NCBI GenBank assembly: GCA_034687125.1
Contig: JAQGBZ010000007.1
Coordinates: forward strand, 547,695-611,694
From: Neelides folsomi
Lineage: Eukaryota; Arthropoda; Collembola; Neelipleona; Neelidae
Reading direction: 5' to 3'
Length of the DNA: 64,000 bases
The translations under genes and the position numbers were made by a program. Under the pieces are notes generated by a model. The model had not been told where the DNA came from. It searched no databases and saw only the letters and a program-made list of their open reading frames with translations. Positions within the stretch are counted from its first letter, which is position 1. Every line of letters starts with the position of its first letter. Shown here piece after piece: positions 14,163 through 63,472 of the stretch.

Positions 14163-17100
14163 ATGTTCAGCTTCGCCAGCAAAATGCTCAACACGATCAT
14201 GGGGGAGGGCGAAGGGCAGCCGTCAGGTCAGCCCCTTCACCCAGGCCAACAGCAGCCTCAGCATCTCCAGCAACAACAACAACCCCCCAGGCCCATGGGA
14301 GGCGGCGGGTTCCCCCAACCACGCCCGCCCCAACCTGGCCCCAACGTGCGGCCCTACGGCGGTCCCCCACAATTCAGTGGCCCTCGGCCGAACCCAGCCC
14401 TCGTTCGCCCCATGCCGCCAAACTTCGGCGGCGGACCGCCAAGAGGGATCGTTGGCGGTCCGGGCCAACCTCATCGGTTCAACGGGAGGCCGCCGGGGCC
14501 GGGCGGGCCTCCGGGGCCGGGCGGGCCTCGCGGAGGACCGCCAGGTCCCCACCCAGGAGGGCCCATGGGACCCCACGGCCCTCACCCTGCCGGCCACCAA
14601 CCGCCACCGAGTTCCATGTCTGGTCATCCGGGCATGATGCGAGGGCCACATCCTGGACAGCCAATGGGAAATCGCCCGCGTCCGCCCATGGGCCAACAGC
14701 CGCTGAAGACCCAACCGCCACTCCATCCGCATGGTGAGTGAAACGTTTAAGTCCGCCAATTAATGGTCTATTGATTCCCCTCCCCACCCTTCCTCATATT
14801 TTATGTATCACATTTTAAACTACGTTGTTCCTCGTTATCCAAGTGGATTCCGAGAGATCGATTTTTCATTCCTCCGAGAGAGTTGAATTGAAAGGGCTTA
14901 AGCTGGAAAAGACCTTTTCTCCCCGCAGATCCCATCTTGACTCGCCTGCTCGGACTAATATTAAAATTATTATGATTTATAGGCGGAGGGATCGGAATGG
15001 TCCCGAATGTTCCTACGACCACGGGCGCCCCGGTTCCGGACCTCGATCTAAGCCATTTGAGCGACGAGGAGAGGGCCATGATTGAGAACGTAATGGCCAA
15101 AGCCCAGCAGCTCGAACAAGAAGTCCCGCCTGCTCCAACCACCTCCATTCACCAGCCGAATCTCGGAGGGCAGAACCGTATGATGAGGTAAGGTCTTTGG
15201 TTCACTCTCACCGCACCCACCGCGAGAGATGCCAAGAGATGTGGTATGGTCTGCGAGGTGCTTACTTCTTACCCACAATCTCCTTTTTATTCATAGGCCG
15301 GATGAATGGTCGGGGATGGAGATGGGTGGAGGTCTGTGTCCCATTTGCAGACACGAGGTAAGCCCCGTTCCCATCCTATGCCCCCTGTTCCCAAGGGGAG
15401 CATTGAGGTCACTGGGGAATTTGCAGGTGAACGTGGACGGGCACGGTGGACGAGAGTGCGGAGACTGCCGGACCATTGTGTGCAGCAGGTGTGGGGGAAT
15501 AGCTCAAGATCCAGAGAATAAGGTACTCCATCCTAATTTATCCTCTCGCCCATTCATTTCCATTACAACAGGTTCAGGGTGTTAGGAGTCCCCTCGCAGA
15601 TTCAATTAGGATGAGACGATAAAGCATAAATATTCATAAGGGGAAACTACCGCTAATTAATTCCGCTTGTATTAAGTGGACTCTGAACCAACAACGCACT
15701 CGCACCTCCATTCATGGGATCACAAACTTCCCACTTGGAGTGGTTGACTTTACAAACATTCTTTTCGAGACTCTCGTTGACACTTCTCGTATACATCATG
15801 ATCGAGATTTATCAACTCAAATAATGAAACCAAGAGGATCCGGACATAAAGAGTGTTGACTCAGGACATTTAAAACATTTCCACAAATAACCCCTATTTA
15901 ATGCTATTCAATTATCGGAGAATATTGAAACTTGTTAAAATTTGATACTTTTTAACATGGTGAAAGTCCTACTTTCGCCATTCTACATACTTTTCTAATA
16001 CATGTGTTATTTCGAGTTATTTGGCCCAATTGGAAGTAGGGGAATTTAGTAGAAATTTTTATTATTTTTAATGCTGGGGGTGTTCAACTTCCTGATCACT
16101 TTTAGTAAGATTAATTATTTTTTTATTTCAGCGTCAGGATTGGGTTTGCGTGAATTGCATGAAGCGCCGAAGGCAACAAGGAATAATTCCAGTTGTAAGT
16201 TTGCCTACCTCATCCATGGCCCAAGGATTTCGACCTCCGGTTTCCCACTCGACTCAAGGGAGCCCCAATCCCGTGAGTGACTGTGAAGAATCCCCACGTG
16301 AGTCTTTTCCTCAACCTTTCGCTCTTAGGTTGACTGGGAGGGGGGCCGCCGGGGGAGCGGGGGGTACGCCGACCAGCACCATCACCAGCACCAGGCTCCG
16401 CACCAGCCGCAGCGGTGGGAGAACGAGAGTGAGTTGGGAGAGAAGGGTGGTGGCCAAGTAGAGATGTGGGAGATTGAGGAACCGGATCATATGAGGAATG
16501 ACCCATCGACCATTTTGTCACCCGATCGGCTGAAGGAAGAGCTTTTGCTAAGTCCTGATAGGAGCCCTGTCGAGGAGTTCCAAAGCCCCCTTAGGTCACC
16601 CATCCTTGACTTTCCTCAACACACCCTGAGCATGAGCACTCCTTTACCAGCCTCTGCTAGCAAAACAAAGCCTTCTTTTATTAAACTGCATAGTCGCTCC
16701 ACTTGCATTGAAGTGAATGAGCAAGAGGAGCGCGTTGAGCCCCCCCTCGTCGACCCGCCGAACGACAAGGCAAATGCCCTCATGGAAGAGCTTTCCAAGC
16801 TCCAGTCCGCCGTCGAAACCTACACGATGAAGCGGCTGGAGCGCGAGAAGGCCAAACCTCCGGTCGAATTTCCCTCTCGGCCCAAACGGCGAGTCTGGGA
16901 CTCGTCCACGCCCTCGCCTGCGGGCTCGCCCGCCGAGAGCCCTTTGCGAGAGACCAACCGGATCAGGTACCGGGCGGAAGAGTCTCCCGAGTCTCCCGAA
17001 GCCCCCGAAGTGAAAAAGTCCATCAATCTCAACTCCGAGGGCGATGACTACAAGAGTTCGACCGACGAGGAGTCACCGAGCGACAGCGACGAGGAGGGTA

Positions 17101-20100
17101 AGGATCGCCACCCTCATGACAACTCCGGGTTCTATGATCATAACCCGGGAGAAGTGTATACAATTCCGGAAGAGGAGGATGAGGGTGGAAGTCCAATCGG
17201 CGGCGATCTCGTCTCAAGTCTCAATCGTACCGGTAAGTGCATGTTCTCCTTGCATGAGCGACTCGACGCGTACAACACAAACATTTTATTTTTCGTTGCC
17301 TCTCCGGTCTTCAGTCAATGTGTTGAACGTGGAGCAGGACGAAAGCTCATTTTCTCCCTCAGAGACGAAAGTCAATTAGCCGTGAAGAACGCCTTCACTC
17401 TCACTCATCAGAAGTGAGCAAATTTGAGAATCCCGAGGTGTTTCAACTACTCCACTTGTAGCAACTCCATCTAATAATAAATACCTCTCTATCGATGCCC
17501 CATGACTTCCCACATGGCGGAGACGGGAAATAGTTGCCAACGTCTCTCTGCTTAATTATGCTCTCTCGGGGAAATTTCATTATCCATGATGTATGGAAAG
17601 TTTCTTATTCAATCTCCCGTTCCATTAAAGGGGGTTTATGAGGAATTAAAGGAATCTCCCCCCTTCGCCTCACTCAACTCTGTCATATCCAATTGCGCCC
17701 ATCACTCCCATCATCCTCCTGTCTCATTTAAACCTAATTTGAAACTGTTTTATTATGAGACTCCAACGCCCATGGCTTTCCCGTTTATTTACTACCGGAG
17801 AAGGTCGTAAATATTCCTCCCGTGTATACTTACCTTCAACATCCATTGCCATCATGTTTTCTCCATGTTTTAAATCCACATTCTTCATCTTATGATTATT
17901 AGATTCAAAGAGCAATCTCAGAGGTTCCTTATTGTAAATAACCTAATAAGGTTTCCTCATTATCACTTTTAATCATTTCCTCCCTTGGTAAGAAAACTTT
18001 ATCTCTTTTCCGTTTCAATGGTTTACATATAAATGGAACTATTTATTTGTATATGGTAAATATACATAAGTACATGGTTAAATGAACCTTTTTGTAAATC
18101 ATTTACACTATGTAAATTGTACCTATTGTAGGTATATGAAGAAAAAAACTTTCCTTTTCCTTGCCTCTTTTTCTTTGGGCTTTGATGAGATTGGGAGATA
18201 GGATAAATCCTTTTGAACAAAATTCTTTTTCCATGGAGTTTGAAAGTGTGGTGAGATTGGGAAAGGAATAAAATTGGGTCTTGGATTTATACTGTTTCTG
18301 GGTTGGTCAGAGAAAACTCCCCTTGTCCGATAAGTGGACAAATATTGAAAGGCAATTTCATTTGTTACGAGAGCCGCAGAGACGTAAAGGCAGGTTGCTC
18401 AGAAAAGTTGTAGTAATCTTGAAGGAAAATATATCGATTTAAATTGGCCATTAGGACCATTGTGTTCCCGAGAAGAGATTTTCTTCCCTTGTTAGCCAAC
18501 CATGACAAAGGTGAAAGGAGAAGTTAGAAAAATGTAAAGTTTTCGTCCTGCTCACTTCAAACCCAATCTGATTTTTCAGAGTTTTTCCAGCAAACATACT
18601 TTTAGAGTTAGGAACCTTTAATATCTAAATAATATCTAAAACTTCTACTACGATTATGATTATGGAATTTAAACTCGTTTTCACTTGATCGTAGAGTGAA
18701 AAAAAATTTCGAGTTCATATATGATAAACGCCTGTAGCAAAGATAGCTGCATTTAACTACTAATATATAAACTCCAGTAATAGTTTATATAACGATATTC
18801 TTTGACATTATTTTGTAATGGTAGAAGTTTAAGGTTGAATTTTTGATTTTTAAAAATGTAGTTTACTTTGTATTCAACCTAATAAACATGTAGAGCCGCA
18901 TAACCTAAATAAAATATGTAGGTAAAATTAGTTTAGACCTCATTTAGTACCAGACATTTTATTGAATATATTCATATTAGAAATAAATGCTTTCTTTTAT
19001 TTGATATTCATTGACTCATTGTGTCATTGTAAATATTTAACCGTCGCTATATAAGTTTATTCAGATTGCTATTGTAATGCCTAATAAACTTCTGGTCCTA
19101 TCTGATTGAGTGTCACGGAACACTCAAAAGCTATTAACAAAAGATTGAATTAAGCATTGATAGTTGTGAATTTTTGATTTAACGATTTTCCCGTCTTTGT
19201 ATTAGACTTTAGACAGCTCTACAACAGACATGTAGGCATCCAGACATGAACAAAAATAATTTGATTACTAAGTTCAAATAGACTTGATAGGAGGTAATTA
19301 GTTTCATCTGAAAAAAACATTAAAAACTTATTTCTCGTTTTCCTATTATTCAAACTTCCATCAGATAGGGCATGAAAGACAACCGAGAAACTTGCATTTG
19401 TTAATCGATTTCGACATGAATGAAATTTTTTGCTTTATTTTATATATGTATTATGAAATACCTCTTTGTTTGTTATCATGCATTTATTAAGTATGTATTT
19501 ATATGTTCTGTAAAGTGTTGGTTACTTTAAATTCTCACGCACTACTCTTTAAAAGTGCTTTTATATAAATCATACTACTTTAGTATTAACTTGAACCAAG
19601 AAATTCATCATTTAAGCATATCAATTATTTACATATGAATTTAATAGAGAATCATTTAAACAGAATAAATATGACGCCAAATAAAATAAAAACATATATT
19701 AGGTCTTATATTTTATATGTACATAAGTAACTATATCAGTAACTATATACATAGTCATATTACACTTTTGTGTATCTGACACATTTATGACTCGTCTTTA
19801 ATATTAATTGACTTAATGTACTTGTGTTTGTATTTGGTTTTGGACAGGAATGGACCATTATAAGTACAATACATTACATTATTCAATTAAATGTATTTTA
19901 AATATTCATGAGTATTAACAAGCACATAATTAACATACATGTTAAATGATTTAAAAATGTCATGAAAACGACAAAAAATTTCCTTTGATTAACTAATCAA
20001 AATATTCAAATTGAATGGCACAATTTTTTAAATTGCACATATACATATTATTAGTGATACAATAAAAGCATAATGAATTAAATTTATGAACCAATTAATT

Positions 20101-23100: not shown

Positions 23101-26100
23101 GACATAATCGAAGTTTTCTAAATCCTCATCCCATTAATAATAACGAGCAGATTAAAGTTTCCATAAGGGTGTAAGACTGTTCAATTAATACATTAGTTTT
23201 ACTATTTCCACAAAGAGAAGTTTGAGTATAAAATAAGCTCCAATTCTATATTCTCCGAAACGTGTATAAGTATGTTTTTATAATAATAATAATAATAATG
23301 ATATTAATATTAATAAACTGTGGGATGGAAATTTGAATTCCAAGTTACTAACAAAAGAATATTTCCCCAGGACTCCCAGGGCAGATGAACGAGAACGGCG
23401 AGATGAATCGACGTCGAATGGCTGGGCAAGAACTCCATCAAGGAATGCATCCCTCTGACCAGAGCCAAATGACAAGACCTCAACTTCGTGTTCAACGATC
23501 TCTCGACAATAGGCTTCCAACTCACACCTTGAGCGACACGCAAAGCAACATTCAGATCGACGCCCTAGGAAACTTCAGCCCTCATCTCCCACGGACATCT
23601 CACCACCAACCCGGGACTCATATGGATAATCAAGGAATCATGAGCCAAGCAAATGGCAATCTTTTGAATGGTGCTTCCTCATTGAGGAATATGGATGTTG
23701 TGCATACGACAGCTGGAGGTTTTGTTGGGGAACAGCAACTTGGTCAATCTCTTCACTCTCATATCGGTCCCACAGCGACGAGTTCAGACATGGTGATGAG
23801 CAGTTCTGGCCCTCCGTATCAAGTAAAAACCATTCTTTTTACTTCTCTACATACATAATAAATATACCTTCTTTACCTTACTGGGCAATAAAATTATTTA
23901 TCAATTTGTTTTATCTACAGGCTTCGTTATTGGGACAAACAACCCAAGACAAATCTCCGATGGGTCAGTGGAACAACAATTCAATAATGAGCAATCAGAA
24001 CCATCAGCCTGGAATGATTGACCACACTGTTATGGAGGGAGGCCTATTACCTGACCAAGATATAAAGAATCAACCATATCAAACAGACTCAAATGCTTTT
24101 ACAACTCCTCACACTCGAGCGTCCAATCAATTCCCTACATCACAAGGACAAATAATGCCTTCACACTCCCAACAATCTCAACAGCAATTGCAACAGCAAC
24201 AACACCTTCAGCAGCAACAGCATCAGCAACATCAACAACAACAACATCAGCAGCAACAGCAACAGCATCAGCAACAACAGCACCAGCACCAGCAGCAGCA
24301 GCAACATCAACAGCAGCAACTTCAACAACAACAGCATCAGCAATTACAGCAACAACAACACCAGCAGCTTCAACAACAACAAATCCAACAGCAACAATTG
24401 CAACAACAACATCTTCAGCAACAACAAGCCCACCAGCAGTCCCAACATGCACAAAGCTTAATGCAACATTCAACACAACAAGGCATGAGTTCTCAGCACC
24501 AGCAGCTTCAGCACCTTCCCACTTCCCAGCAGCAATATCAACAACAACACAATTCCCAATACCAGCAAACAACTGACCATTCCAAGCTCCAGCAAATGGA
24601 CTATTCCTCTCCTCAACAAATGGTTCCTAACATTGGTAGCATGGGCCAACAGCAATCAAGGCTCATCACCCCAAAGCCAATCTACGAACAAGTTCCACAT
24701 TTAGACAATTCTCCACATCACTACAACCAACAGAATCCTCAAATGGGAACTGACCATCAACATCAACAGCAATATTCCAGGACACATCCACAGAGCCAAA
24801 TACCCGGCCAACAGCAGCATCACCAAGATCAGCAACATTTGGGGCCTATGAGTTCGCAGGGGTATAATGCGCAATATAATCCACATCATACATCTCAAGC
24901 TGGGGCTCCTGGAAAATCAATAAGTGGGCTTTTGGCTGATTTCAGTCGAGCTCTAGGTAAGAATTTCTTAAATACTTTGTATAAAAATAATAAATAAATA
25001 TACTAAATAATTTATAATTTCAGATACATTTAATTAATCTATTAATTGACGTGTAAAAAAATGTTTTGTATTTACAGGAATAGGAACTTCACCTCGGCCT
25101 TCTCCGTCAGAGGATAAAAGCGAGCCATTCCCAATCCCGTCCGGAAGACAAGGAAGTGGGACAGACCAGTTTCATGGCCTATCTCCTTACGACATCTCCC
25201 ACCATGCCCCTTTGGGGAAAGGGCACATGGAGCAGTCCGCCTTTGCTCCGATTCAAATGCACGATGGGGGAATGTTAAGGGAAGACTCTTCCCTGGGTCA
25301 ATCTTACTTCCATCCTAATTATACCTCACCGACTCCAAGTGTTCAGCAACAGATGGGCCTTCAGAACGTCCACCTCGGTGGCAGGTAAATATTTCAAAAC
25401 CAATTCATTACTATTATTTATTATATTAAATATGATTGATACATATGGATTGATATTAATGGTCAAATGGGTTTGTTTGTAGTAGCGTGCAGCTCGGGAG
25501 CTATACATTGGGATCCCAAGGAGCAACTCCCCAGTTTGCCGTCTTAGGTTCAACCCATCAAGGGCAAATAGTTGGGCCACAAGGAGTTGGGGTTGTCGGT
25601 GGACTGACCCAAGCACAAGCACACATGTATCAGCACCAAATGGCACTGCAGCACCAGGCACAGCATATGAAAAAGACAAGCCGAAGGGCTCAACTCACCG
25701 GGAACGAACTGCGGAAAGAACAAGGAGGATCCGCTCTCATCTTTGGAGGCCAAGGTATAGCTATGGGCCCTGGAGGAATGACTTTAGGAACTCTCGGTCC
25801 AGCCGTCGTCACGAGTCTAGGGACATTTATCGGAGGAACTCCGACAATTATAGGGACGTCCCTTATTCCGCAAACTCTTACAGGTTGAATCATAGAAAAA
25901 ACTTTCCTTTTTAGCTACCCAGTCTATCTGTAGAACCGGAGACTCAGAGACCTGACTTTCCCTCGTGCATGTTCTTATTATTTACCTCTACACTTTTTCG
26001 TGGTTAGTGACGCCGTTGGGTACTCCATTAGGAACTCCTGCCGGAACCCCACGGAGCGGCCGCGATCCTGGAGGAGATTCCTCCGACACCATGAGCGAGA

Positions 26101-29100
26101 CGGACTCCCAAAAGTCGCTCAGGATGAGGAGGAAACTTCCCTGTCTCCCGCCTGACCAGGAAGCTGCTCCTCTCCCCACGACAAAAAAACGAGATCGGCA
26201 AAGAGCCCAAGAGGCATTTAGGTAAAATGACAATTTAAATGAATTAAACCTAAGTAATTTAATTAATGATTTTCATAATATTTATCTATTAATAATAATT
26301 ATAATAAGTGTGATGATTTTATTATTTTTAGGTCGCTCTCGCCAATGCGAATGAGTTCATTTGAAAGTGCCCTTCCTGGAAAATCCTATCCTTTTTCAAA
26401 CCTTTCCCTTTCGAGACCGAGTGCGAGTGAAAGCAATTTGAGAAAAATGACAATGGGAGTTTCAGAGACAATTCCCAGACCTGGTTCTGCCTTGGGACTC
26501 CTTCAAGGTATAAAAATATGTCGTTTTTCTTAAAAGCTTTGGGGTAGAATGTAATATTGAATTATAGTAATTTTCAAAATGGTAAAAATTGTTGAATAAA
26601 TGTGTGGGCTTGTACATAACAGTTTAGCATTTACTGCAGAAATATGCAGAGGAATACATAAAAACAAACATATCAATTGGAAAAGCTACTTATTCCAAAT
26701 TACTGCATTCCTAAAAGGAATGGTTTAGTAGACTGAAACAAATTGTTCACATTTAGGATCGAGCATTGTGGGAGGTCAAACCGATTCGGTTTATCCTCAT
26801 ACATTCTTGGGCCCCTCTTCTTACCCGCTTGGCCTTCGAGGGACGAATGCGGGCTTCTCGGCCTCCTCGGACCTCACCACGACCACTTCGGTGTTATCCG
26901 GGCTCTATCCATGCTACAAAACATCCGAAAACTGGAATTCCAACATGGAAGAACTGGCCGCTTGTCTCCCGCCCGACCTCCGCCACCTCCTGAACAAAGG
27001 CGACGGCGACCTGCGAGGGCTGAGCGGCCTGAGCTCCGGACTGGGCGAACCAGGCCTCGGGTCCCAGCTCCCCAACTACATGCGGACCCTTCGGGAACAG
27101 CTGCAAGAGGAGCGGCGCCAACTGCTGTCCGACGAGCGTCGTCGGCTGGAGGCCCTGCGAGAGCGGGACCGGGAGCTGGGGGCCCGACTCGACGCCGTGA
27201 CTCGGAAAGCAGACGGGACGAGGTAATAGAGCAAGGCGTGACAAGTAGCTGACAAGTGGCACAGGCACACACTCACAGCACACGCACGAAACAAACTGTG
27301 TGAGGAGTCCGCGGCAGACTAATTGATTCCTGGGTTGAATAATGCAGAGCGGACGTTTCTAGGAATTTGGGAATATCGAGGTCGGCGGGGGCAAGCCCAC
27401 TCCTGAGTCGGAAACTGAAAGGACACAGACGTCAGTTATCCGATCCCAAACTTTCCCTTCCCTTCTCGCCCATCCAAGAGGACGGGGATTCAGAACTCCA
27501 GGATTTCGATCGAGTATGAGCTCCTCCTGTGTTTGTCTTTGTGTCTGTCTGTGCCCTTCACCCTCTCGACCCGAGGAGTGCCGTCTGCTCACTCCCTTTG
27601 TCTTCCAGATCTCGGCAGCACTATTGAGGCAGCCCTACAAGTCCTACGAGTACGAGTCGCTCGAGGACCGGCCCTCGCCCGGAGTCGGGGACTGGGACCA
27701 CTCGCAGTCCTACCTGGCCTCCTCGTGGGCCCAGGTGGGCGGCATCCTCCGTGACACCGCCATCCAAAGCATGACCTCGGACGAGTTCCGGACCAGGCGA
27801 CGGAGCAGCGAGGGAGAAGCCTGGCCGCCCTCGCCGCTCTCAAGGGTGCCGGGGAAGCGGTCGTCTGGGCGACGCCACCGAAAAAGCCGCTCCTGGCACC
27901 CTTCGCCCTACGTCTCCGAAGAGGTAAAGACTGGCCTATTCCCCTTGACGGAGTCTCTTGACCACTCGTGGGATAGGAGGACGAGGAGGAGGAGGAGACA
28001 ATGAGCAGGGAAGAAAAAAAGGCCCGAATTAAAGCAGAGATTGCCCGTCGTCGGGCTCAAATACAGGAAAGGACGGGGACCCATCACGACATCTACCGAA
28101 TGTCCGGGCTGCGAGAGGGACATGACCTCGAACGCCACAGCGTCCTGAAGTCCGTCGACCAGCTGCTCCGTGACCAGTACGGCCGTCGGGTCGGGTCCCG
28201 CCGTCCGCCGCTCAGCCCCACCGCCAGCGAGGAGGACCGAAGCATCGACCGGATCGCGTCCACGTTCCGCAGCGAGGACTACGCCTTCTTCGACAAGCTG
28301 GGGGAAATGTCCCCAATGGCCACCGACACGGAGAGCCTGGCCAGCGAGGCGCCGGCCATGCCCATCCTACCCGACATGCCTTCCCGGTCTCGGCGACTCC
28401 TCGAGGACCTCGGCTCGGCCCCCATCGGCCTTCACGGAGTGAGGGGCCTCAAAGGCAAGTACGGTCTCTCCAACCAGGGGCTGAGTCTTCCATTCCGCAC
28501 TGTGCTCTGACAATACTAAGTGAACGGCATGGACTTCCTGTTGGAATGATGTGTTTATGGTGAAGACGGAGTTCTTGTTCACGTTGCTTGCCTTGCAATC
28601 TCAGCCTCGGTGTTTGACCGTCGGCCTTGGACCCAACGAGGAGAAGACGTTCCTCTTGCATATCCTTCATCTGCTCTTTCTCCTGCTCATCTTTTGCTCG
28701 TCACTTTGGGCCGTGTGATGTGACCCTCTTGCCCTGCTCGTCTCTCTAGGATCCTCCTGAGGTGGTGGCGGTTAGTTCTCTTCGTAGCCCCTCTTGGAGG
28801 AGCGAGAACAATCTTTGGTGCCTTAGCTTTCCTTTCAAAGACTTCTTTTGACCGCCGAGCCCCAGATGTGCCGAGGTGCTTGCTCCTCCTCCCAATCAAT
28901 GAAGTGACTCTCTTTACCTCCCTAGACTTGGAACAAGTTCCTTGAAGATGGAAGACTCATAGACTCGTCTCTTTCCCTCTCCACCGGCGAAGAGATATAG
29001 AGCAACTACTATATACATACCTACATATGTACTGCATGACTTGAATGAATACGTCGTGTGTCCTCCCGGACATCTCTCCCCACCTCACCGAGAGCCCCAG

Positions 29101-32100
29101 TGATTTTACAGTAGTGGTGAAAGTGATGAGCAGAATACGCTAGAGATCCTAGACACGACAGAGTTATCTTCTATTCGTAGTGCTCACCTTATACTTATTA
29201 CATATATATATACTCTCTGTACATGTATCTCTTGTTGATCAGAACGGACTACCAAACTTGGCGTCTATATTTGAGTTCAAATTTGTTGCTATGAAATAAA
29301 TATTAAGATGATTCTTTGGCCTTTGTTAGTCATCGTGTCATGTGAGGGCTCCCATCGCCCCTCATTAATACGCCTTTCATGTACTCAATCTCGATCAAAG
29401 CATCTTTTCTCGTACTGAAAGCGAGGAGGGCAAGATTCAGAATTTCATCTGCATTCCGCCTTCCTTCATATATTTATGAATGCGAATTCCTGTCTCCATC
29501 ACCATTCCTCTGGAAATGTCTCACCACTCTCCCTCCGATTTCTCTATTATTATTTCCGCTTTTCACGTTCAGACTCACGCTATGGTTTACTCATTTGCTC
29601 TCTCACACATTCGGCTCCCACATGCCAGCAACTACCATTTAAATGTCGTGAATTCTTTATTGTGGAACACTCAAGAACTTGCCAGAAAACTTGATAACCT
29701 GATCCGAATCCAACTCTGTCTCCCTTTCTTCTTTCTCTTTCTCTTGGCTGATTTCTGATTCAATTGACTGGAGATTCTTGGGGGAACTCTCACTCCTTGC
29801 AGGGAAGGTCCTCGATGATAGAAAATTGAGTAAGAAGGAGACAGGCGAGGAGATGGTGAAAAAATATCTGAGTGAAGCCAAGGGGTTCGAAGAAGAGTGG
29901 AAGCCCATCGAGGACGACATGGGAAAGTACGAGAAGGCTGTTAAGTCCGATACCCCGACCAACTCCAGGAATTCGCTCAACTCAGGCTCTCTTTCTCACT
30001 CAAAGTCAAAAAAAGTTCAAGTAAGGGAAAAATCTTCAATTCCTTTCCCAGTCACTAAGCCCATTCGTGCTTAATCCGAGCTCAACTATGCAATGTCTTT
30101 CAATGCGGTCCCGACCTGTAGACCAAATCTCCCGTCGAGGCCGCAATTTCTTTCGGATAAACCTTTTACGCTTCTTCCTTGGCTCCCTTTTACTCTCTCG
30201 TAAAGATAAAGGATGCATAAAAGGATTCAAGAGCTTTGTTGGTGATTAATCCCTTCCTTATTCTCCCTTTGAAAGGCCCTTTCAACCCCCGACGATTTGA
30301 AATCCGAAGAGAAAGAGAGCGCTGAGAAGAAAATATTCGTCGTAAAAAACAAAAGCGGAAAGCTCATTTCGAGGAATGGATATCAATTAAGGATTGTAGG
30401 AGGGAAATTAATTCCTCAAACTGAGAGCCTTGCGGCCTTCATTTCCAAGATCGTCCCACCGGAAAAACCATTCAAAACTGATTTTATTGAAGACATGTAC
30501 GAAGGTTCGGATTTCGCATGCCATTATTAACTCAAATATACATTACAAAGGTAAAACAATTGGCAGTTTTGAGTCAAATAAAAGACACAATACGAAACAT
30601 TTATTACATGGCTTAAAATTAATTAAAAAATTAAAGTATAAGTTCAAATCTTATACTTACTTTACCACTATTTTCCTGTATATTGTCTAACTACTACATA
30701 CATATATGTAATATCCTTATATCTCTTTGTATGTGATCTTTTTATACGCCAAATCATATTGTGCAGATCAATAATATCATATACTTATAATATAATACTT
30801 ATAATACTTTATGTATATAGTCTATATTTAGAATTCGTGCAAATAAGTACTACGTATACATAGATTAGATATCCAAAGGCGTGATTCTGCATTTTACATA
30901 TCATACTTAGGTACATCACTATCTACCTGTATCTGTATATACTATTTATCAAGGTATCATCTAAATAGTATTTTAAGATTGTAAAGATCTATATAGTGAT
31001 GAATTCCCATCTTTTTTATCGGCTATATGCAAACCATTTTGGAAAAGTGGGTCATAGTCATAATACAAATAAATCTTTCTAGTCCACAAGACTTGGACCT
31101 TTTTGCATTTCAGAAATATTCACAAGATAAATCACAAAGATGAATTATTTATGAATTTGAATAAACATAAGAAGGATAACTCTGCGTTTGTCAGAGATGC
31201 CTTATTTATATGCCTACTATTTAAAAAGAAGATTCTTTCTAAACCCTCTAGCTAAACGCATTACATTGTTAACAAAGAGAAATGTGTTATATCTACCATA
31301 TCAAAATCATTTAATTTAAGCATGATTTGTGGCATGAGCGTGTGAAAGAGAAAAATCTAATAAATGTAAAATTAATATAATAAATATTCTACCGATGCGA
31401 TAGCGTCCTATACTGTACCACCATATTTACAAAAAATAAGTAGAAAGTATAAATGTATATAATATCATTATATTATATAATATAGTAATACAATATCCTA
31501 AGTTTATAATATAATAGTTCTATATAAATACAACATACCATGTGATTTCACCCCTTTTGTTCTTTTGAGTTCTCAAAGATCATTAATTATTTTTTGGATG
31601 AAACTCAAATAACAGAAAATCCAGTTTAATTATGAAGTTAATTAAATATAAAATATTCTATAGAATATAAAATAAAAACCACGTATTTATGTATACCATA
31701 TACATACAATATTGAAACGGTAGCTTTGCCCGAGACTATTTCCTAAATTGATCCAAGTTTTGTGGTCAGAGTGAGTCCAAATGTTTGAGAGAACATTGTT
31801 CTTCCTCATTAATTAATTCGAAGGTAAATAATTTCGTTCTTTGGATTGAATGTTTATACATTACTTTATTATTCACATTGCCAAACATTTGGTGCATTTG
31901 TTTAAGCAAAACACTGCCGTTTCATTTCGACTAGCAAACTTTCCCAGATATCACATAATATATTTAGAAACACTGTAGAATTCTAATAGAATCCCAAGTC
32001 TAATTGAAGCATATAAAATTTTAAAGTTTAATTAAATGCCCTCTTTTTTAATTATAACCGAAACATGAATAGCCTTTTGAGAAATAAGTAATATCTTTAA

Positions 32101-49241: not shown

Positions 49242-49347
49242 GTGGAGATCAAAGGTGGGCGTTTTAAGCCCGGTCGGACGAAACCCTAGCCCGATCATAT
49301 GTTTTTCAAAAACCCGCCCGAACCCGAGTCCGATTATTCATGTTTTT

Positions 49348-49475
49348 ATAGGGCCCGCCCCCGAGCCCGAGCCCAATCAATTCTGAAATTTTAGGGCCTG
49401 CCCGAGCCCGATCAATCCTGAATTTTTAGGGCCCGCCCGAGCCCGATCAATCCTGAATTTCTAAAGCCCGAGCAC
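49348..49475. repeat. Subterminal GCCCGAGCCCGATCAAT tandem repeats of the hAT element
   Basis: About three degenerate copies of a ~35-bp unit (core GCCCGAGCCCGATCAAT, then CTGAATTTTTAGGGCC). Inverted GCCCGAGCCCG motifs recur near the right end (50793-50822). Such subterminal arrays are transposase-binding sites in hAT elements. Confidence 0.75.
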
Positions 49476-49928
49476 GGCCGGGCTCGGTAAAAATCATAGA
49501 GCCCGACCATTACCCGCATCGGGCACTGATTGGGCTATTAGGTAAAGTGATTTGTAGTTTATGGTAAGTGTAGTTTATATATTCTACTTACTACTAATAA
49601 CAATGAAATGTCCTAATATATTTACTTAAGATATAAGATAAAAACAATCCAAGTTTAAGCCTCTATTTACACAAAAAAGCATTTAAACAACTTCTCGAGT
49701 TGAATGAGTTCATTGAAGATTAAACATTTCCCAATTAATGTTTTACGCCTATTACACTTAAGTCGATTTTTTTAAGACAGTAAGATTTATATATATATTT
49801 ATATAACATAATAGTTTGTTTAAATAGAAAAAAATAATTTTATGAAAATTTTAACCTAAATAAATTGTTTTCGGTTAACAACATTATTAATTGTATTATA
49901 ATAATATAAATTGTAGGTGCCAACTAAG

Positions 49929-50348
49929 ATGGGTGGAGGAGTATCAAAAGGGGACATTGACAACAATCTGCAAATTGCTCAAGAAACGAAGGACAGATTT
50001 AAAGAGATACAAATCAAAGAAATGAAAAACGACACTCGACTTCAAGGGATGAATGATATCATGGACATGGTGAAGGAACATGCTTCCTAAATTGATGCCA
50101 TTATTGGACTCTTCATTCTGATTGTCGTATTGATTTGCGTTGCATTCGCATTGAAAAAGAAGTTCAAAACACTCAAACTCCTAACACTTCCAACATTGAA
50201 TCAGACAAAAAATACAATTGAGCTAGCCTTCACATTAATGAAAGAAGAAGCATGCAATATTAATGAAAATGACGCACAAATGATTTCTGTTTCGCAAGAA
50301 GAGCCTCCTAAAAAGAAAGCTAAATCTACAGTTTTTGATGAACTCTGA
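49929..50348 (+). pseudogene. Chimeric frame inside the hAT element: membrane-protein-like N-terminus fused to transposase remnant
   Basis: An ATG opens MGGGVSKGDIDNNLQIAQET, a glycine-2 start of the kind used for N-myristoylation, then a charged amphipathic helix. One in-frame TAA (50088-50090) interrupts the frame, which then continues IDAIIGLFILIVVLICVAFA and KKKFKTLK: a transmembrane helix with a basic stop. It runs on into a Glu-rich stretch ending PPKKKAKSTVFDEL, resembling the linker before a hAT dimerisation domain. The first ~75 codons do not look like transposase, so they may be a captured foreign segment. Family not recognised. A gtag directly before the ATG region may be a remnant splice acceptor. 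Confidence 0.5.
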
Positions 50349-50529
50349 TATGATCCCCGAGAGCAAAGATGAATCTATGCAGCTTTCAGAGATTCAGACT
50401 TATTTGACAGAGCCCTTGTCTAAGAATTTGAAATGCGATTAAGATGTACTCAATTATTGGAAACTTAACAAACATCGTTTCCCAATCTTGTCAAACTTGG
50501 CCTTAACATACTCGCCTTTAACATCATGA
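50349..50529 (+). pseudogene. hAT transposase C-terminal dimerisation domain remnant
   Basis: In the frame shifted by one from the preceding segment: SEIQTYLTEPLSKNLKC, a TAA, then DVLNYWKLNKHRFPILSNLA and a TGA at 50527-50529. The [D]VL.YW..N..RFP.LS.LA pattern is the hATC signature. One frameshift and one internal stop make it non-functional. Confidence 0.85.
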
Positions 50530-50845
50530 GACGAAGTTTTAAAATACTAATATACGAATAGAGTAACATTATAGATTGTTTTTGCATTTGCAATTTATTA
50601 AATTCTATATCTATCAACTACTAAAATATATATTACATATTACATTGTCAAATAAAATTATAGAATAAAATTTTCATTTTACAACCTAGATTATATTAAT
50701 TATACATATAATCGACAAATCAATTCTTTTAATTCAAATAAATTAAATTTAAATTTATGTTGTTTAATCATTGATCTTGTTTTTCAAGTGCTCGCCCGAG
50801 CCCGACTGCCCGACGGCCCGGGCTTCGCCCACCTTTGGTGGAGAT

Positions 50846-51637
50846 AGGTAGGCAAAAGGTGTTTCGTCTGCAGGGCAGATGAGGCTTTCACACATCCATC
50901 GTCCAGAAATGTTCAATAGGTTATAGTTATAGCCATTTTTATTATACCTTCTTTTTATTCCATCTCCGCCCACTGTGTATATGTATTTAGCTATAGGGAG
51001 AGAGCCTGAGCCACTTTGGAGTTTCTGTCATAGATCTAGATAGAGAATCTCTCTTTCATCTTCATTGCAGGTGTGACGGACTTCTCGGACGTCAAAAGAT
51101 GTAGTTCAACCATCGAACACATCGACCCCGTTTTAACTCATCCTTTCCTATTTAACATTTCTAACCCTTTTCTATCATTGGACTTTAGTTAGGATCACAA
51201 CGACCGGATAATTGTTTGATAAATTAATCCAATAGAGGCGGATTTCCAAAGGAAGTGAAGAATGAAATTGAGTCGACCGGAGGTATACAAACCATACGTG
51301 TTTCGCATATTTAACTATTATTTCTTTTCATTTTTGTTCCCACTTCCTTGTCAATTTTCATGTGGAGAATGTGTCAACACAAAAGCTGAAATTTCATTTT
51401 CTATTTAACTCCCTTATCACGTCCCCTTCATATCCTTTTTACTTTCCATAAATTGGAATAATGAGGATAAGAGCTAATTAGAACCAATTTATCTAATCTT
51501 TTTATTAATCTCAATTTATTACAATGGATATTGAGCTTTGTGAAGGGGAAAGACAATTTTTAATTCAATTATTTTATTTTCAGATGTTGAAGAGAGAAGG
51601 TCGCCAACCAAATAGAAATACCAAAAAGAATTGAAAT
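50846..51637. promoter_or_regulatory. Upstream region of the PH-actin gene
   Basis: Includes the probable promoter/5'UTR. A polypyrimidine acceptor (atttcag ending ~51581) lies ~55 bases before the start codon, so a non-coding first exon upstream is likely. No other gene seen. Confidence 0.45.
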
Positions 51638-54600
51638 ATGGATTCCTCATACAACCAAAGCATGTACGGGTCAAGAGGACCTCGACTTACTAACATTGAA
51701 ATCAAAATTCATTCGCCAGATGAAGAGAAGGATGCCGGACTTTTCAAGACTCTTATTCAATGTAATCAAGATAACTATGCAGCTAATGACAAGGTTAATA
51801 TCAACTTTGTATTAATTATATTTCAAATCATTAGATAAGATTACGATTTAATCGATTTGCCTCTTATCTTTATGTAAATTAAAACTTGTTAAATACTAAA
51901 ATCTATTGGTATAATCTTAATCCGTTTGTGTTTTTTATCTATTTTTTGTAATTGTGTTTCAAAACATTATCCAGGCCCTGTGTCCACAAGAATATATTCC
52001 TATACATTGATACATAACAAAACTATAAATATTGATATATTCAGATAAATAATGTGTACTTGTTTAGATGATAATTTATCTATGAAACTATTGTTTTGAT
52101 TAATCAACATAAACTATGATATTTAATGACTATGATGACTTAATTTTTGATTCCATTTTCAGAATGAATTCAAAAATTCAGCAAAGAACATATCTGAAGT
52201 TAACTCTCATGTGGTAGACAATTTACAAGAATCAAATCACGAATCAATCGGTAATTAAATGTGACCCATAAATATTAATGTAACGTTATTATTTACATTA
52301 TCCTTTATTCCGAGGATATTTATACACATTATATATTACATATAATCAAATAAAACATAGTGTAGTTGTAATTGTAATATGACTAACAATTGTTATTTAT
52401 TAATATTACAGATAGTCTAATTCCACGAGCAGCAAGGTTGATTTTGGCCCAGCAGTCAGATGGGAAAAACGAGAGCAGCGATGTCGAAGAGGAATTTTTT
52501 GATAATGATATGGATGGAAATTTGAGCCTGACAGAAACCTCTGATTCATTTCCCTTGGATGATTACCAAATGCCCAATTACGTTGATCAAGGTATTAAAA
52601 CTTATCGAATATACATGTCTTTACATGCCATGTATCTTCAAACTTTATTTATATAAATCTTATGATATTTAATTGTAAAATTTCAATTAAATTATTCTAA
52701 GTCCGCTAAAGTCACGTTTAAACATTTAGGACTTGAGGTTATCCACGAAGAAACCGAAAGCCAAATTTCCTCAGATACAGATTTTGACCTTGATCGATAT
52801 GATGAAATATGCTCAGAGACTTTACTCCAAAGGAAACCGAATCCAAATGATCACAGCGATCAATTTTGGATTGACCATTTTGTAAAAAAAGAATCGCCCA
52901 GAAATTCAGAATCTTTACATGAGGTTTCCGATGACGAATTCACACAATCCAAGAAAACTCCCTCGGGGGATGAAATCATCTCTAAACACATTCGAATTTC
53001 TTCTAATTGGAATCCTGTGAGTTGCCATTAAAATTTTTTCATAAAAATATATTTATTATTCCAATTCTGGATTTTATGGATAATAAATTTTTTTAGGATT
53101 CAATGCTTAAAAGACTTTACGCCATTCCTGAACCGCCAAAAGAAGGGAAAAAGGATGCAAAAGAGTTGATGGCTGGCTACATGCTCATTTTAAGTGGAAA
53201 TAGGAAAAAGGGAACTTTTTGGAATGCATGGAAGCGAAAGTTCTTTATTGTAACAGCAGACAAACTCATTTCTTATGATGTATATAAACATTCATATAAT
53301 TGGTTTACCTATTATAAATGCGTTCATGTGTAGTATTCTGTTGTTCAATTTTTTAAAAATCCTTACTATGTTAATTTCAAGTTCTAATTAATTCATTTTA
53401 CTTATTTTAGAATGATAGTTGTCAAGAATTGGTCGAAAATGTTAGTATTCGGGGAGGATCAGTTGATTTTCTTGACCCGAAGGAATTTGTAAGAACTGAG
53501 AAGGTGATTTAATTATGTTTGTATTATATTTACAATTATATTATCTAATTAATAGAATGTGAATAATATTTTCTTTTATTCTAATTATTTTAGGATAAGA
53601 ATCTCACGAACCGTATAATTGGAGTTGATGACGGGGTAAATTGATTTTAATTTTCCTTTCTAATGAATTATTAAATTATAATGGATAATGTAATGACTGT
53701 TTGTTAATATTTCAGAAAGGCCATTATTTTGTTCTTCAATGTGCCACTGTTGGTGAAGCTGAAGTTTGGATCGAATCTCTCGAGAAAGCTGTTTCTTCTA
53801 AATTGACTTTCTCGGCTCCTCTGCTTGTTAAAGAACCTTCCCTCTACAGGGACATTCTTTTGGTTGATTTTGGTTCAACTAATATTCGAAGCGGAGTGTT
53901 GACTTATCAAGGTGAATTGAAATTACATTTGGAACCCTTTTCATTTTTTGAATTCTATTTAATTTCTTATTGTCGTGTTCATTTAGCAATATTGCCATCT
54001 TTATTTTTTGCTTCTGTAATGTCTGAGAATCCGGAAAAAGGAATAACGTTATATGGAAATGACGTGTATTTGCCTCAAAACCGGAAAAATGCCAAAATTA
54101 GATTTCCGTTTGAGTGCTCTTCGAAAATATCTCAAGTACTTTCATTTTCATTTTTTTAATATCTTCTTTTATCATTTTAAAATTTTCCGAACCAGTTTCA
54201 TTGAATGATATTTCATAGAACACTATTGATGTGAATGCGTTGGAGGGATTTTTCCTCAAGATTTTGAAAGAACTGAATCTTAATGCTGAAAACTTCAGAA
54301 TATTTTTCAATTTTCCAAGAAGAATCGATAATAATTGCCGAAAGAGTATTTTGAAACTACTTTTTCACAAATACAAGGTAGAAAATTTAACAATGATGAA
54401 TCTTTTACCATAATATATGTAATTAGCATAATATCTGTACATTAACTATTTCAACTTAAAGTTTTAAATTTGTTTTTAATCACTTTTGTCATCATTTTCT
54501 ACTCAAGGTACGAAGCGTCCTCTTGGCTCATCAAAGTGTAATGGCATTTTGGGCTTATTCTGTCGAAAACGGAATTATTTGTGATGTTGGAGAAAGATGC

Positions 54601-55582
54601 GGTAATTTTTTTATTTCATTATTAAGCATATCTCGGTTTTATTTTTAATGGTAAAATCAAGGATTTTAATTAATACGAATTGTTAATCTATTTAGACATT
54701 GTTCCGGTTAGTCAAGGATTTGTGTTGAATTACGCATGGAGTTCTGCTCCTCTTGGTGGCCATCCATTAAAGCATTCTCTTCGAGGACTTCTCGGACCTC
54801 AGGTGAATTTACTTCAATTTTACAAATTATATTTTAACAATTTTGTTATTCATTTTAGGAAAATGGCCTTTATTTGTCAACACCGGCTGAAAATCTTGTT
54901 TTGCGATTCATTTCTGAGAATTTTACATGTGTGAATGGGGCTGGTCCTTCGCGTCGGAGTTCTCAGGATTCACAGGAAATTGTTGTTGAGATGGACCTAC
55001 GTGATGTTCTACCATTTTCTGGCCTTATTGGTGTAAATCAAGAAGTTCTTCGAAGTGTTGCTGAAGGCTTTTTCCATCCTTCATTTTACGGCCTTGACTG
55101 CTCAGGAATTCCAAAACTTCTTCTTAAAGCTTTACAGGTTTTCAATTTTTCCAAAAAACAATCGTTAAATGTATACATATGTTTTAAACAACCTTTAGCG
55201 GAATCTAATATTTGTTTGATTTTGACAGTCAATTAGCGTGGATTTGAGGAAAGAAATCTCTCAAAATATTATTTTGGTCGGAGGAAGCACGTTGATTCCT
55301 GGGTTTGTTGAGAGACTTCAAGGAGAATTGACCAAACTTTGCCCACCTCATATGAAACCGAAGGTGGGTTTTAAATTACAAACAATCTTAATATTTATGT
55401 TTAATTATAAGCATGGTTAAATATTATTATTTGTTTTGTTATAGATCCTAGCTTCACCTTATCGCTACCATGCATCGTTCATAGGGGCTTCTGTATTGGC
55501 GAATACAGACTCTTTTGAAAAATCTGTTCTTCACCGAGCGAAATATGACGATGGTCCTGGACCAACACATTGGCTCATTTGA
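51638..55582 (+). CDS. PH domain fused to a full-length actin-like domain
   Basis: Fifteen exons close in phase (761 aa): 51638-51793, 52163-52250, 52412-52591, 52730-53016, 53097-53279, 53411-53503, 53594-53635, 53716-53911, 53987-54135, 54219-54377, 54508-54601, 54696-54802, 54859-55137, 55229-55363, 55445-55582. Residues 1-250 are acidic and probably disordered. A PH domain (~258-370) shows AGYMLILSG, WNAWKRKFFIVTADKLISYD and a C-terminal helix with VWIESLEKAV. The actin fold (~388-761) keeps phosphate loop 1 (VDFGSTNIRSG, from 393), a Gln aligned with actin Gln137 (residue 520), phosphate loop 2 (GIICDVGE, Asp 537), the adenosine loop (ILVGGSTLIPGF, ~687-698) and the C-terminal ASPYRYHASFIGASVLA. 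Nucleotide binding is therefore plausible. I know no named family with this architecture. Expected, by inference, to act at phosphoinositide-rich membranes. Confidence 0.85.
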
Positions 55583-57815: not shown

Positions 57816-60764
57816 TTAAGTTGTTTGAAATTCTTTGTAATCTTTGAATTTCTTCAATTGCTTTTTCATCTGCTTAACTAAATCTGCAGGTTGAACTAGG
57901 ACAGAGATGTTTTTTCCCACAGCATTGAGACGTTCCTTGACTTCGTTCCCCCTTGAAAAGAGGCAAAGCGGACTGTTGTTCACTTCAGTGATGAACCAAT
58001 TGACTAATGAGACTCCGTCCGTTGATTGGGCTTTTGGTGTGAGTCCTTGTTCTCCACATAAACCACACACATCTCCAATCTCTCCACTATTCCCTTCCAG
58101 ATCTAAGGAATTCAATATTTAATTAATTTCTTACTCTTCATTAAAAGTTTCAATAAATTACCAATGCCCAATTTTTGCCCTTCTACTGATCGCTTAAAGA
58201 CGAAAATCTTTCCAAATGGAACTCGTTTCACCAGAAATTCAACCTTAAAATAAATATAACGATGTATACCATATCATAAAATCATTCATTATGATTTAAT
58301 TAGCATTTAATTATTTAAACAATTCAAGTTACTGACCTGTAATGAAGAAACCATTTTGATTGCTCGAACCGCTTCGATGCTATTTTGTATTGTAACACCC
58401 GCTACTTTCACAATTTGGTCCCCAATATGGAAAGCGTATTTGAGAACTAGAAAAATTTAATTTAAAAAGTCAAAAAATTTATTTAATTCATTAATACAAT
58501 TTACTTTATTGTTTATGAAATTTAATAAAGTAAAATGATTTACCAGGATGATCATTTTGCTTCCATCCAGCGACCCTTTAATATAAAAAAACATTTCGTC
58601 ATAAACTCTCGATGTCTCAATAAATCCCATTGAATAGATCTTGGTGTGAAATTGAAACTAACCAAACAGCTCCGAGATAATCAATGAGAGCGATGCTTTC
58701 AACACAATCTTTCTTTTTCAAAACGATTCTCACTCCGCCCGCATGATTAATTTCAGTTCGAAGTCGAAGAACTTGCTGTTCTTTTAATGACAAGTTGGAG
58801 GATGCTGGGAATGACACAGCCGTGTATTGAATTGCTCCTTCCCTATTGCTCCGACCCGTTACGTTGTCTCTTGACATTCTATAAGCTTCTCCCGAAATGC
58901 CCAAAATTGAATCCATTGGCTGATTCTAAAAGAATTGTCTTTTGATAAATGCGTTCCTTCATATAAGATCATTAAAGTGAATTAATTAATGTGAATTTAA
59001 ACCTCTCTGTCGATTGAATGAGAGCGGCCATTGTGGGCTGAAGGGCTTCCATTCAGCGGTTGAATCTCACCGTGCTCTTCGACGTGTCTTCCCCTTCCTG
59101 ATTTTGGCGTATTTTGACTACTTCTATAAATTTAATTAAAATCCATTTAAAATTCTCATATTAAATATTACAAATATAAATTCCTGTTTAAATTCTTTGA
59201 AATTTTTATTTAAAATTAACCTTTTATGCAAAACCCTTGATTGTGGATTTTTCTTTGGGATTGCTGGAGTGACTTCGATGATCGATTGTTCATTCGTTGA
59301 ATTTGGATTGACAAAAAGGGGTTCATAAAGATTTTCACCCAGTCGGGAATTGTGGGAGGACGTGGGTTGACTTGGTTCTTTCTTAGGACGAGATTCTTTG
59401 CTTTTACCTTGAACCATTTCAGAAACTTTAACTCTTATTTGCGAAGGCCCAATTTCTCTAATTTGACTACTCGGCCCAGGAAGCTCTGACGAAGTTAAGG
59501 GATTTCCCAATTCGATGACTGTATTGTATCGCAGAGGGGCATCGGGCCTCGATGGCCTTGAAGCCTGATTGACACGAATGCCGTCAGCCTCATGATTTCT
59601 AAAAGAACCGAAAACTCATTTGCAACTTAAGTTATTCATAAAAGATTAAGATAAAGGAAAGAGATTGAATTTAAAATGTAAATTAAACATCGAGGCCGAT
59701 ATACCTGACTCGTATGGGTAACTGCTGCGATGAAGCTGATGTCGAAGGTCTACCGGATGCAGATGAAGCTTCTGATGAGACAAAGATTTCGCTTAAAGCT
59801 GGCAAAAGAGGTTCGGTTGAACCATTCACCACAACACTAGTAATGGCAGAATGGTCCAGCGGAGTTTCAAGAACATTCAAACGACCAGGAGAGTTTTCGT
59901 TATCTTCTCTCAAGTCTGGAAAACAAATATTTTAAATATTGAAATTCTTTCGCAAAGGAAGGTCACAATAATTTAAATTGGAAATATACGTTAAATAAGG
60001 TTATTAGATTATTACCAATCAAAGGATTGCTCTGTCTTGAATGATGATTAGGGCGAATTGGAGGAGTTGGAGGAAGTGGAGAATTCGGATCTCTCGTTCT
60101 TCCTCCAATAATTCCAGGAATAATTGGATGTCTCAAGACCGGTGGGTCCGGTAATTTTGAGTATAAATTGTCTTTCGGCCCAAGAACTTTCATATCGCGC
60201 AATTTTCCTTGAAGTGACTCGAGCCATTCACTCATTTGGGCATAGGAGGAAGCTTGCAATCGAATGACCTCACTCGGCAGCGTCACGGCAAATTGATGTT
60301 CTTCGTTCTCCTCTCCCATGATTGAAGGTGAGACGTGGAGACAGGTATTGAGAGAAATGGCAAATGTCGGTTTGTGATTTGCTGTCCCCACTTTTGCTTC
60401 GATGTAAAATTCGAGAAACGCTTCCACATCGTCATGAATGCAGAAAACTACCCAATATTTTTCTTTCTTTGGAAGGAACGTCCCTTTCTTTTCGCTTGAT
60501 CCGACAATTCTCTTAAGCCAAGCATTCTTATGGATTTCTCTCACTGCTGGTTGACCATGATTTCCACTGGATCCGGATATTCGGATAAATCTTCGTGGAG
60601 CCCCTTCAATTACTCCTAAATGATATTAAAATTAAATAGAGTAAAATATTCCTTTAGAACGAACAATTTAACAACTATTTAATTATTTGAATTATTTATG
60701 ACAAACCCGAAGATGCTGCAGGAAGTAACGGACGATCCCTTTCTTGGTTTGAATTTGAACTCAT
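57816..60764 (-). CDS. PH- and PDZ-like-domain adaptor protein, unnamed
   Basis: Ten exons close in phase (713 aa): 60764-60707, 60615-60016, 59915-59705, 59598-59221, 59123-59003, 58925-58663, 58575-58544, 58446-58337, 58243-58162, 58102-57816. An N-terminal PH-like domain (~45-150) shows IHKNAWLKRI, KEKYWVVFCIHDD and a final helix YAQMSEWLESLQGKL. A long Ser/Pro-rich linker follows (~155-440). The C-terminal ~270 residues hold PDZ-like modules: the first with AFHIGDQIVKVAGVTIQNS (the GD.I..V.G pattern), the second starting FVFKRSVEGQKLGIDLE, with WFITEVNNSP and LNAVGKNISVLVQPADLVK near the end. A likely cortical or signalling adaptor by domain logic. I could not assign an ortholog name. The carboxylate-binding GLGF loop of the first module is not obvious. 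Confidence 0.8.
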
Positions 60765-62593: not shown

Positions 62594-63472
62594 ATGGACC
62601 CAACGTACAAGATTGTGATGGTGCGTCATGGGGAAAGTGAATGGAACGAGAAGAATTTATTTTGTGGATGGTTTGATGCCAATCTGAGTGCTAAGGGTAA
62701 TTTATAAATTATATTAATTACATCCAATTAATCCAAATCTTATTAAGGAAATAAATGTAAATATGAATTGATGTAAATAAATAAATTATTGTCTTTTTAA
62801 TCAACAGGCGAAGAGGAGGCTCGGAATGCCGGAAAAGCTTTACAAGATGCCAATTACACTTTCGACGTTGCTTTCACTTCAGTGCTTACAAGAGCTCAAC
62901 GAACTCTCGCCCTCGCCCTGAAGGGCATTGGCCAAGAGAACATTCCAATAGAGAAGACTTGGAGACTCAACGAGCGACATTACGGAGGACTCACAGGGCT
63001 GAACAAGTCCGAAACAGCAGCCAAATATGGTGACGAACAAGTGCAAATCTGGCGACGAAGCTTCGACATTCCCCCGCCGCCAATGGAAGCAGGAAGTCCC
63101 TTTTACGACATCATCATGAAGGATCCCCGATATGCCGAAGGGCCATCGGCAGAGAAATTCCCAAAATTTGAATCTCTTAAGTTGACCATCGAGCGAACTC
63201 TGCCTTACTGGAATGAGGTCATTGTTCCTCAAATTCTGGCTGGGAAGAAAGTTCTCATTGCAGCTCATGGGAATTCATTGAGGGGGATTGTAAAGCATTT
63301 GGATGGGATGAGCGAAGAGGCAATCATGGGACTTAATCTCCCAACGGGAATACCCTTTGTTTACGAGCTTGACCAAAATATGAAACCAGTCAAACCTATG
63401 GAATTTCTCGGTGACGAAGAAACTGTTAAGAAAGCAATGGAAGCTGTTGCAGCTCAAGGGAAAGCAAAATAA
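62594..63472 (+). CDS. PGAM: 2,3-bisphosphoglycerate-dependent phosphoglycerate mutase
   Basis: Cytosolic glycolytic enzyme interconverting 3- and 2-phosphoglycerate through a phosphohistidine. Two exons, 62594-62696 and 62808-63472 (255 aa, the usual length for animal PGAM1/2). The catalytic signature [14 protein letters not shown] is at 9-22 (phosphorylated His12). [15 protein letters not shown] (~89-103) supplies the acid/base Glu and substrate residues, and [16 protein letters not shown] (~187-202) the second His and Arg. [12 protein letters not shown] and the C-terminal lysine-rich tail that gates the active site are present. Complete and intact. AATAAA at 63491-63496 and 63587-63592 are candidate poly(A) signals. 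Confidence 0.97.

Follow-up and report, generated by a model that had tools for sequence, protein, structure and literature searches.

Actin and the actin-related proteins (Arps) are mostly stand-alone folds, which reach membranes through separate binding proteins. In the window analysed here, a 64 000-nucleotide stretch of Neelides folsomi DNA, an earlier note described a single gene joining a PH domain to a complete actin-like domain. The locus raises the question of whether this fusion is genuine and, if it is, what kind of actin relative it carries and what such a protein would do.

The predicted coding region (table 1) runs from an ATG at 51638 to a stop codon that ends at 55582. An in-frame TGA (51632-51634) two codons 5′ of this ATG and the context AAT ATG G both fit a start at 51638. 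Phases agree across the 15 exons, and splicing followed by translation gave 761 codons without an internal stop or frameshift. Introns 4-14 are only 56-131 bases in length. Methionines stand at residues 1, 9, 115, 135, 240, 262, 266, 420, 523, 623 and 713 of the product. The locus is predicted to be one intact eukaryotic gene, with a model established at the DNA level. Residues 1-237 are high in Ser, Asp, Glu and Asn, and the Pfam scan of the product found no domain there; composition suggests an acidic, disordered N-terminus.

Table 1. Features of the predicted PH-actin gene; positions are those of the window.
Feature	Position	Strand	Basis
Whole coding region, 761 aa, 15 exons	51638-55582	+	splicing and translation; introns 14/14 GT-AG
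Exons 1-5	51638-51793, 52163-52250, 52412-52591, 52730-53016, 53097-53279	+	
Exons 6-10	53411-53503, 53594-53635, 53716-53911, 53987-54135, 54219-54377	+	
Exons 11-15	54508-54601, 54696-54802, 54859-55137, 55229-55363, 55445-55582	+	
N-terminal region, residues 1-237, exons 1-4 with the intervening introns	51638-53016	+	without Pfam domain
PH domain, residues 262-369, exons 5-8	53169-53793	+	Pfam E 4e-8; closest sequence among solved PH domains, pleckstrin
Junction exon 8, residues 344-409, shared by the PH and actin matches, free of Met	53716-53911	+	Pfam and splicing
Actin-family domain, residues 391-752, exons 8-15	53857-55552	+	Pfam E 5e-40; PDB conventional actins
Phosphate loop 1, DFGSTNIRSG, residues 394-403	53866-53895	+	alignment
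Gln520, aligned with actin Gln137	54532-54534	+	alignment
Eroded phosphate loop 2, DVGERCD, residues 537-543, last codon completed in the next exon	54583-54601	+	alignment
Adenosine loop, GGSTLIPG, residues 689-696	55280-55303	+	alignment

The searches that the earlier note had proposed with the Pfam PH and Actin profiles matched both families in the spliced product, each above its curated cut-off: PF00169 (PH) at residues 262-369 (E 4e-8, 34.2 bits against a cut-off of 25.1) and PF00022 (Actin) at residues 391-752 (E 5e-40, 137.8 bits against 27; profile positions 7-399 of 410). As the note had also stated, the end of one domain and the start of the other lie on a common exon: the 196-base exon 53716-53911 carries, in phase and in one open frame, 26 residues from the end of the PH match together with 19 from the start of the actin match. 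Methionine is absent between residues 266, within the PH domain, and 420, past phosphate loop 1, and also from the frame upstream of the exon as far as 53689. Translation from an ATG that yielded the actin part alone would therefore leave out phosphate loop 1. The introns flanking this exon, 7 and 8, are 80 and 75 bases long. Intron 8 (53912-53986) has no stop in this frame either, and the genomic sequence 53689-54156 thus stays open whether spliced or unspliced; retention of the intron would add 25 residues to the actin domain just past loop 1.

The rival to a genuine fusion is a gene-prediction artefact, in which a wrong exon chain has linked adjacent PH and actin-like genes, or else a gene copy that has decayed. 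The exon chain is a DNA-level prediction, with the boundaries of exons 1-4 set by splice signals and an open frame alone, and the PH and actin domains come to light only after splicing: when exon 54859-55137 (93 aa) and the junction frame (156 aa) were each searched by themselves, no Pfam family matched at E ≤ 1. Against an artefact stand the open, Met-free exon common to both domains, the short introns on either side of it and throughout introns 4-14, the 14/14 GT-AG boundaries and the 761 uninterrupted codons. The note's view that mis-joining is unlikely is borne out by this evidence; we consider an artefact very improbable and the PH-actin fusion, as a predicted gene model, very likely to be real.

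How unusual the pairing is can be judged from other actin relatives. Known Arps were said to lack a PH domain, and this agrees with the four that we scanned (ACTR10, ACTR1A, ACTR6 and ACTL6A), in which Pfam at E ≤ 1 found Actin in 4/4 and PH in 0/4. In the human POTE ankyrins the actin part is near conventional actin. PMC10175787 describes these proteins as an actin domain fused to another module, as in the window protein, with ankyrin repeats in place of PH. Filactin of Dictyostelium resembles the window protein in having a long extension N-terminal to its actin domain, but that domain is near conventional actin, as described in PMC2441452, and the term ‘PH domain’ is absent from the main text of that paper. 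Among the open-access papers listed by literature searches, none named a PH-actin protein. Fusion of an actin domain to another module is thus a known kind of arrangement, PH as the partner was not found in print by these searches, and automated database entries with the PH and actin pair may well exist.

The actin-like part matches the actin family over its full length by profile. In a PDB sequence search the protein matched 165 distinct sequences at E ≤ 1, with conventional actins leading among the best 60 (best E 6.8e-37). On the same Actin profile, the scores are 166 bits for human ACTR10, 449 for ACTR1A and 137.8 for the window domain, which places the last further from the family profile than ACTR10. 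The protein departs from conventional actin in phosphate loop 2, the D-loop and the barbed-end cleft, and adds the PH domain and approximately 240 further N-terminal residues. The description of a complete actin with both phosphate loops therefore stands in part: full length, loop 1, the adenosine loop and a counterpart of Gln137 are present, whereas loop 2 is eroded, reading DVGERCD where actin has DSGDGVTH, with nothing aligned to His161.

For residue counts, beta-actin and six Arps (Arp1, Arp2, Arp3, Arp4, Arp6 and Arp11) were aligned with the window domain and compared at 22 nucleotide-contact, 13 D-loop and 13 barbed-end cleft positions that we take to be the relevant ones. By this list the window protein has the same nucleotide contacts as actin at 10/22 positions (Asp11, Gly13, Ser14, Gln137, Asp154, Gly156, Gly182, Arg210, Glu214 and Gly302) and differs at the other 12/22, which is not the intact ATP site of conventional actin; of the 22, Arp1 keeps 16, Arp2 19, Arp3 16, Arp4 8, and Arp6 and Arp11 10 each. 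Gln137 is present in the window protein and in Arp1-3, and absent in Arp4, Arp6 and Arp11 (Ser in Arp11). The nucleotide site resembles that of Arps with a degraded site, Gln137 excepted. Among the filament contacts, 11/13 D-loop columns are filled in the window protein and 2/13 are identical to actin (5, 3 and 4 identical in Arp1-3), the barbed-end cleft is identical at 4/13 positions (12, 5 and 5 of 13 in Arp1-3), and the plug region at 7/13, equal to Arp1. Tyr306 and Lys336 are replaced, as they also are in Arp1. These predicted filament contacts do not set the window protein apart from Arp2 and Arp3.

Placement among actin relatives was analysed with seven references, beta-actin and the same six Arps, leaving out Arp5, Arp7-9 and the testis actin-like proteins. 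The window domain is 27.0% identical to beta-actin, 24.5% to Arp1, 23.9% to Arp2, 22.6% to Arp4, 20.7% to Arp11, 20.3% to Arp6 and 19.7% to Arp3; phmmer and BLAST likewise ranked beta-actin first of the seven, a kind of ranking that favours slow-evolving rows. A maximum-likelihood tree of eight rows joined the domain to Arp11 at 73/74, flagged by the tool as a meeting of two long branches. When Arp6 was removed the join persisted at 57/48 under the same warning, and when Arp11 was removed the domain fell beside beta-actin, a neighbour without support. Long-branch attraction may account for the weak Arp11 join. Of the groupings not in the best tree, that with Arp1 was rejected at the borderline by the AU test (p 0.0445), while p values of 0.125 for Arp2, 0.078 for Arp3, 0.088 for Arp4, 0.116 for Arp6 and 0.105 for beta-actin mean that most placements stay possible. 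Residues common to the window domain and a single reference numbered 17 for Arp4, 16 for Arp11, 11 for Arp1 and 7-9 for the four others, all inside the control range of 5-24.

Arp10/Arp11, the pointed-end actin of dynactin, is the leading but unproved alternative to orphan status: the gene could be this lineage's Arp10/Arp11, or a duplicate of it, to which an added PH domain would give dynactin direct membrane contact. Besides the tree join, a comparison by exon put Arp11 ahead in exon 11 (11/32 identical, the six others reaching 7-9), both proteins show SVLLA in the alignment and have an Arg in the same position of loop 2, and the two have in common an eroded nucleotide site and marked divergence. 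Yet Arp11 leads in none of the seven other exons compared, its identity is 20.7% against 27.0% for beta-actin, and human ACTR10 gives no PH match, has Ser in place of Gln137 and fills 0/13 D-loop columns where the window protein fills 11/13. Nothing in the present data connects the window protein to dynactin, and we think this origin quite unlikely. None of the tested Arp classes claims the window domain firmly, and on these comparisons it would best be called an orphan.

Microbial and viral collections were also searched for relatives. A 418-aa query spanning the PH end and the actin domain matched by pattern 7 stretches in IMG/VR and 69 in GTDB genomes, with 0 confirmed in either. An alignment query (window domain, beta-actin and Arp1) gave 59 stretches in IMG/VR, 0 of them confirmed, and 111 stretches in GTDB, which yielded 8 loci. 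Among eight queries, beta-actin was the best match at 8/8 of these loci, with 55-93% identity against 25-31% for the window domain; the window PH domain produced two chance-level matches to them (E 1.4 and 8.2). As candidate special kin of the PH-actin gene the 8 loci were rejected: nearest to beta-actin in every case, they are actins in bacterial records. The absence of relatives in IMG/VR and GTDB says little, because both collections are non-eukaryotic.

The 125-aa PH piece scanned by itself matched Pfam PH at E 1.5e-9. A PDB sequence search with the PH part alone returned 11 sequences at E ≤ 1, of which the PH domain of pleckstrin (1x05 and others) was the best, though weak, match (E 0.0012); pleckstrin is not known to have an actin domain. 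Many PH domains show no strong lipid binding. We take the phosphoinositide-binding motif to be K-Xn-[KR]-x-R in beta-1/beta-2, and on inspection it is present in part only: GYMLILSGNRKKGTFWNAWKRKFF, read by eye, has Ile at the beta-1 place where Lys is usual, K-R-K as the second half of the motif and a basic NRKK loop. This loop might make up for the incomplete motif.

A second PH domain lies in a minus-strand open frame at 59966-60625 (Pfam E 1.5e-8), which has no PDB match at E ≤ 0.1. As a donor of the fusion's PH domain this neighbouring gene is unsupported, the similarity between the two not being clear (BLAST E 0.028 over 17 residues; phmmer 3.4 bits, E 0.0029; both one-sequence searches). 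Searched against the whole window, the PH-actin protein matched its own exons only. Elsewhere in the 64-kb window, ARAGORN found no tRNA and Rfam no family at its gathering score. A non-autonomous hAT-like element (49242-50845) lies 0.8 kb upstream of the PH-actin gene. Its 12-base inverted ends are perfect (49250-49261 and 50826-50837), with the 8-base duplication GTGGAGAT on either side, and its label comes from duplications of that length, which we take to be a hallmark of hAT elements; inside it, a small reading frame containing MGGGVSKG (in 49917-50090) is followed by a stop and by a second frame, which includes a hydrophobic stretch (50091-50348). On the plus strand, the frame 62801-63469 is of the histidine phosphatase superfamily (Pfam E 1.1e-20) and presumably resembles phosphoglycerate mutase, and on the minus strand 33-458 gave a weak match to the C-terminal domain of the condensin II subunit CAP-H2 (24.3 bits, below the cut-off of 32). 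GC-rich blocks at 14001-18000 and 24001-30000 (45-54% per 2000 bases, against 29-40% in adjoining blocks) hold long open frames, with CAA/CAG repeats at 24179-24427, and are perhaps exons of large genes.

For function, our main reading, to which we give a probability of about 0.45 as a whole, is that this orphan, pseudo-actin-like protein serves as a scaffold anchored by its PH domain and does not work as a filament-forming ATPase. The PH domain would bring it to the membrane, through phosphoinositide, or to a membrane-bound partner. The actin-fold domain, which we read as fast-evolving, would act as a binding scaffold, holding nucleotide weakly or statically and docking on actin, on an actin-like filament end or on another partner, and the protein itself would form no conventional filaments. 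Membrane targeting, the lack of polymerisation and the scaffold role are parts of this proposal that we infer. The degraded-type nucleotide site, together with the low D-loop and cleft counts, favours a scaffold over a filament-forming ATPase, though not firmly: with Gln137 kept as in Arp1-3, a plug count the same as that of Arp1, and neither the low D-loop and cleft counts nor the changes at Tyr306 and Lys336 being distinctive, some ATPase or filament activity is possible.

The earlier note had spoken of a lipid-targeted actin-like ATPase. In this rival reading the protein would be a working enzyme of that kind, which would polymerise or nucleate on membranes. A full-length domain that keeps Gln137, Asp11, Asp154, Gly156 and Gly302, and a plug like that of Arp1, would suit such an enzyme. 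The eroded loop 2, the gap at His161 and the 10/22 nucleotide contacts would not, and the D-loop and cleft counts point the same way, although both are low in Arp2 and Arp3 too; this reading seems to us unlikely. The tether part of the scaffold proposal has points against it as well, namely the modest PH match (34 bits; best PDB E 0.0012) and the incomplete lipid motif. That motif and the weak matches to the nearest solved PH domains would fit a PH domain not meant for lipids, serving to bind protein or, within the molecule, to regulate the actin-fold domain, but the basic NRKK loop and K-R-K at the usual place speak for lipid, and we regard this alternative as rather doubtful.

The scaffold reading remains the one that we prefer. 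A PH domain carried by the actin-like protein itself would unite membrane binding and the actin fold in one chain, and the PH-actin protein would be a simple system for the role of a membrane-tied actin fold with a decayed ATP site. It is a bolder and doubtful idea that the gene represents a new class of membrane-anchored Arps, in which a PH domain hard-wired to a full-length, repurposed actin fold and conserved in an animal lineage would link phosphoinositide signals directly to the end of an actin-like or dynactin-like filament.
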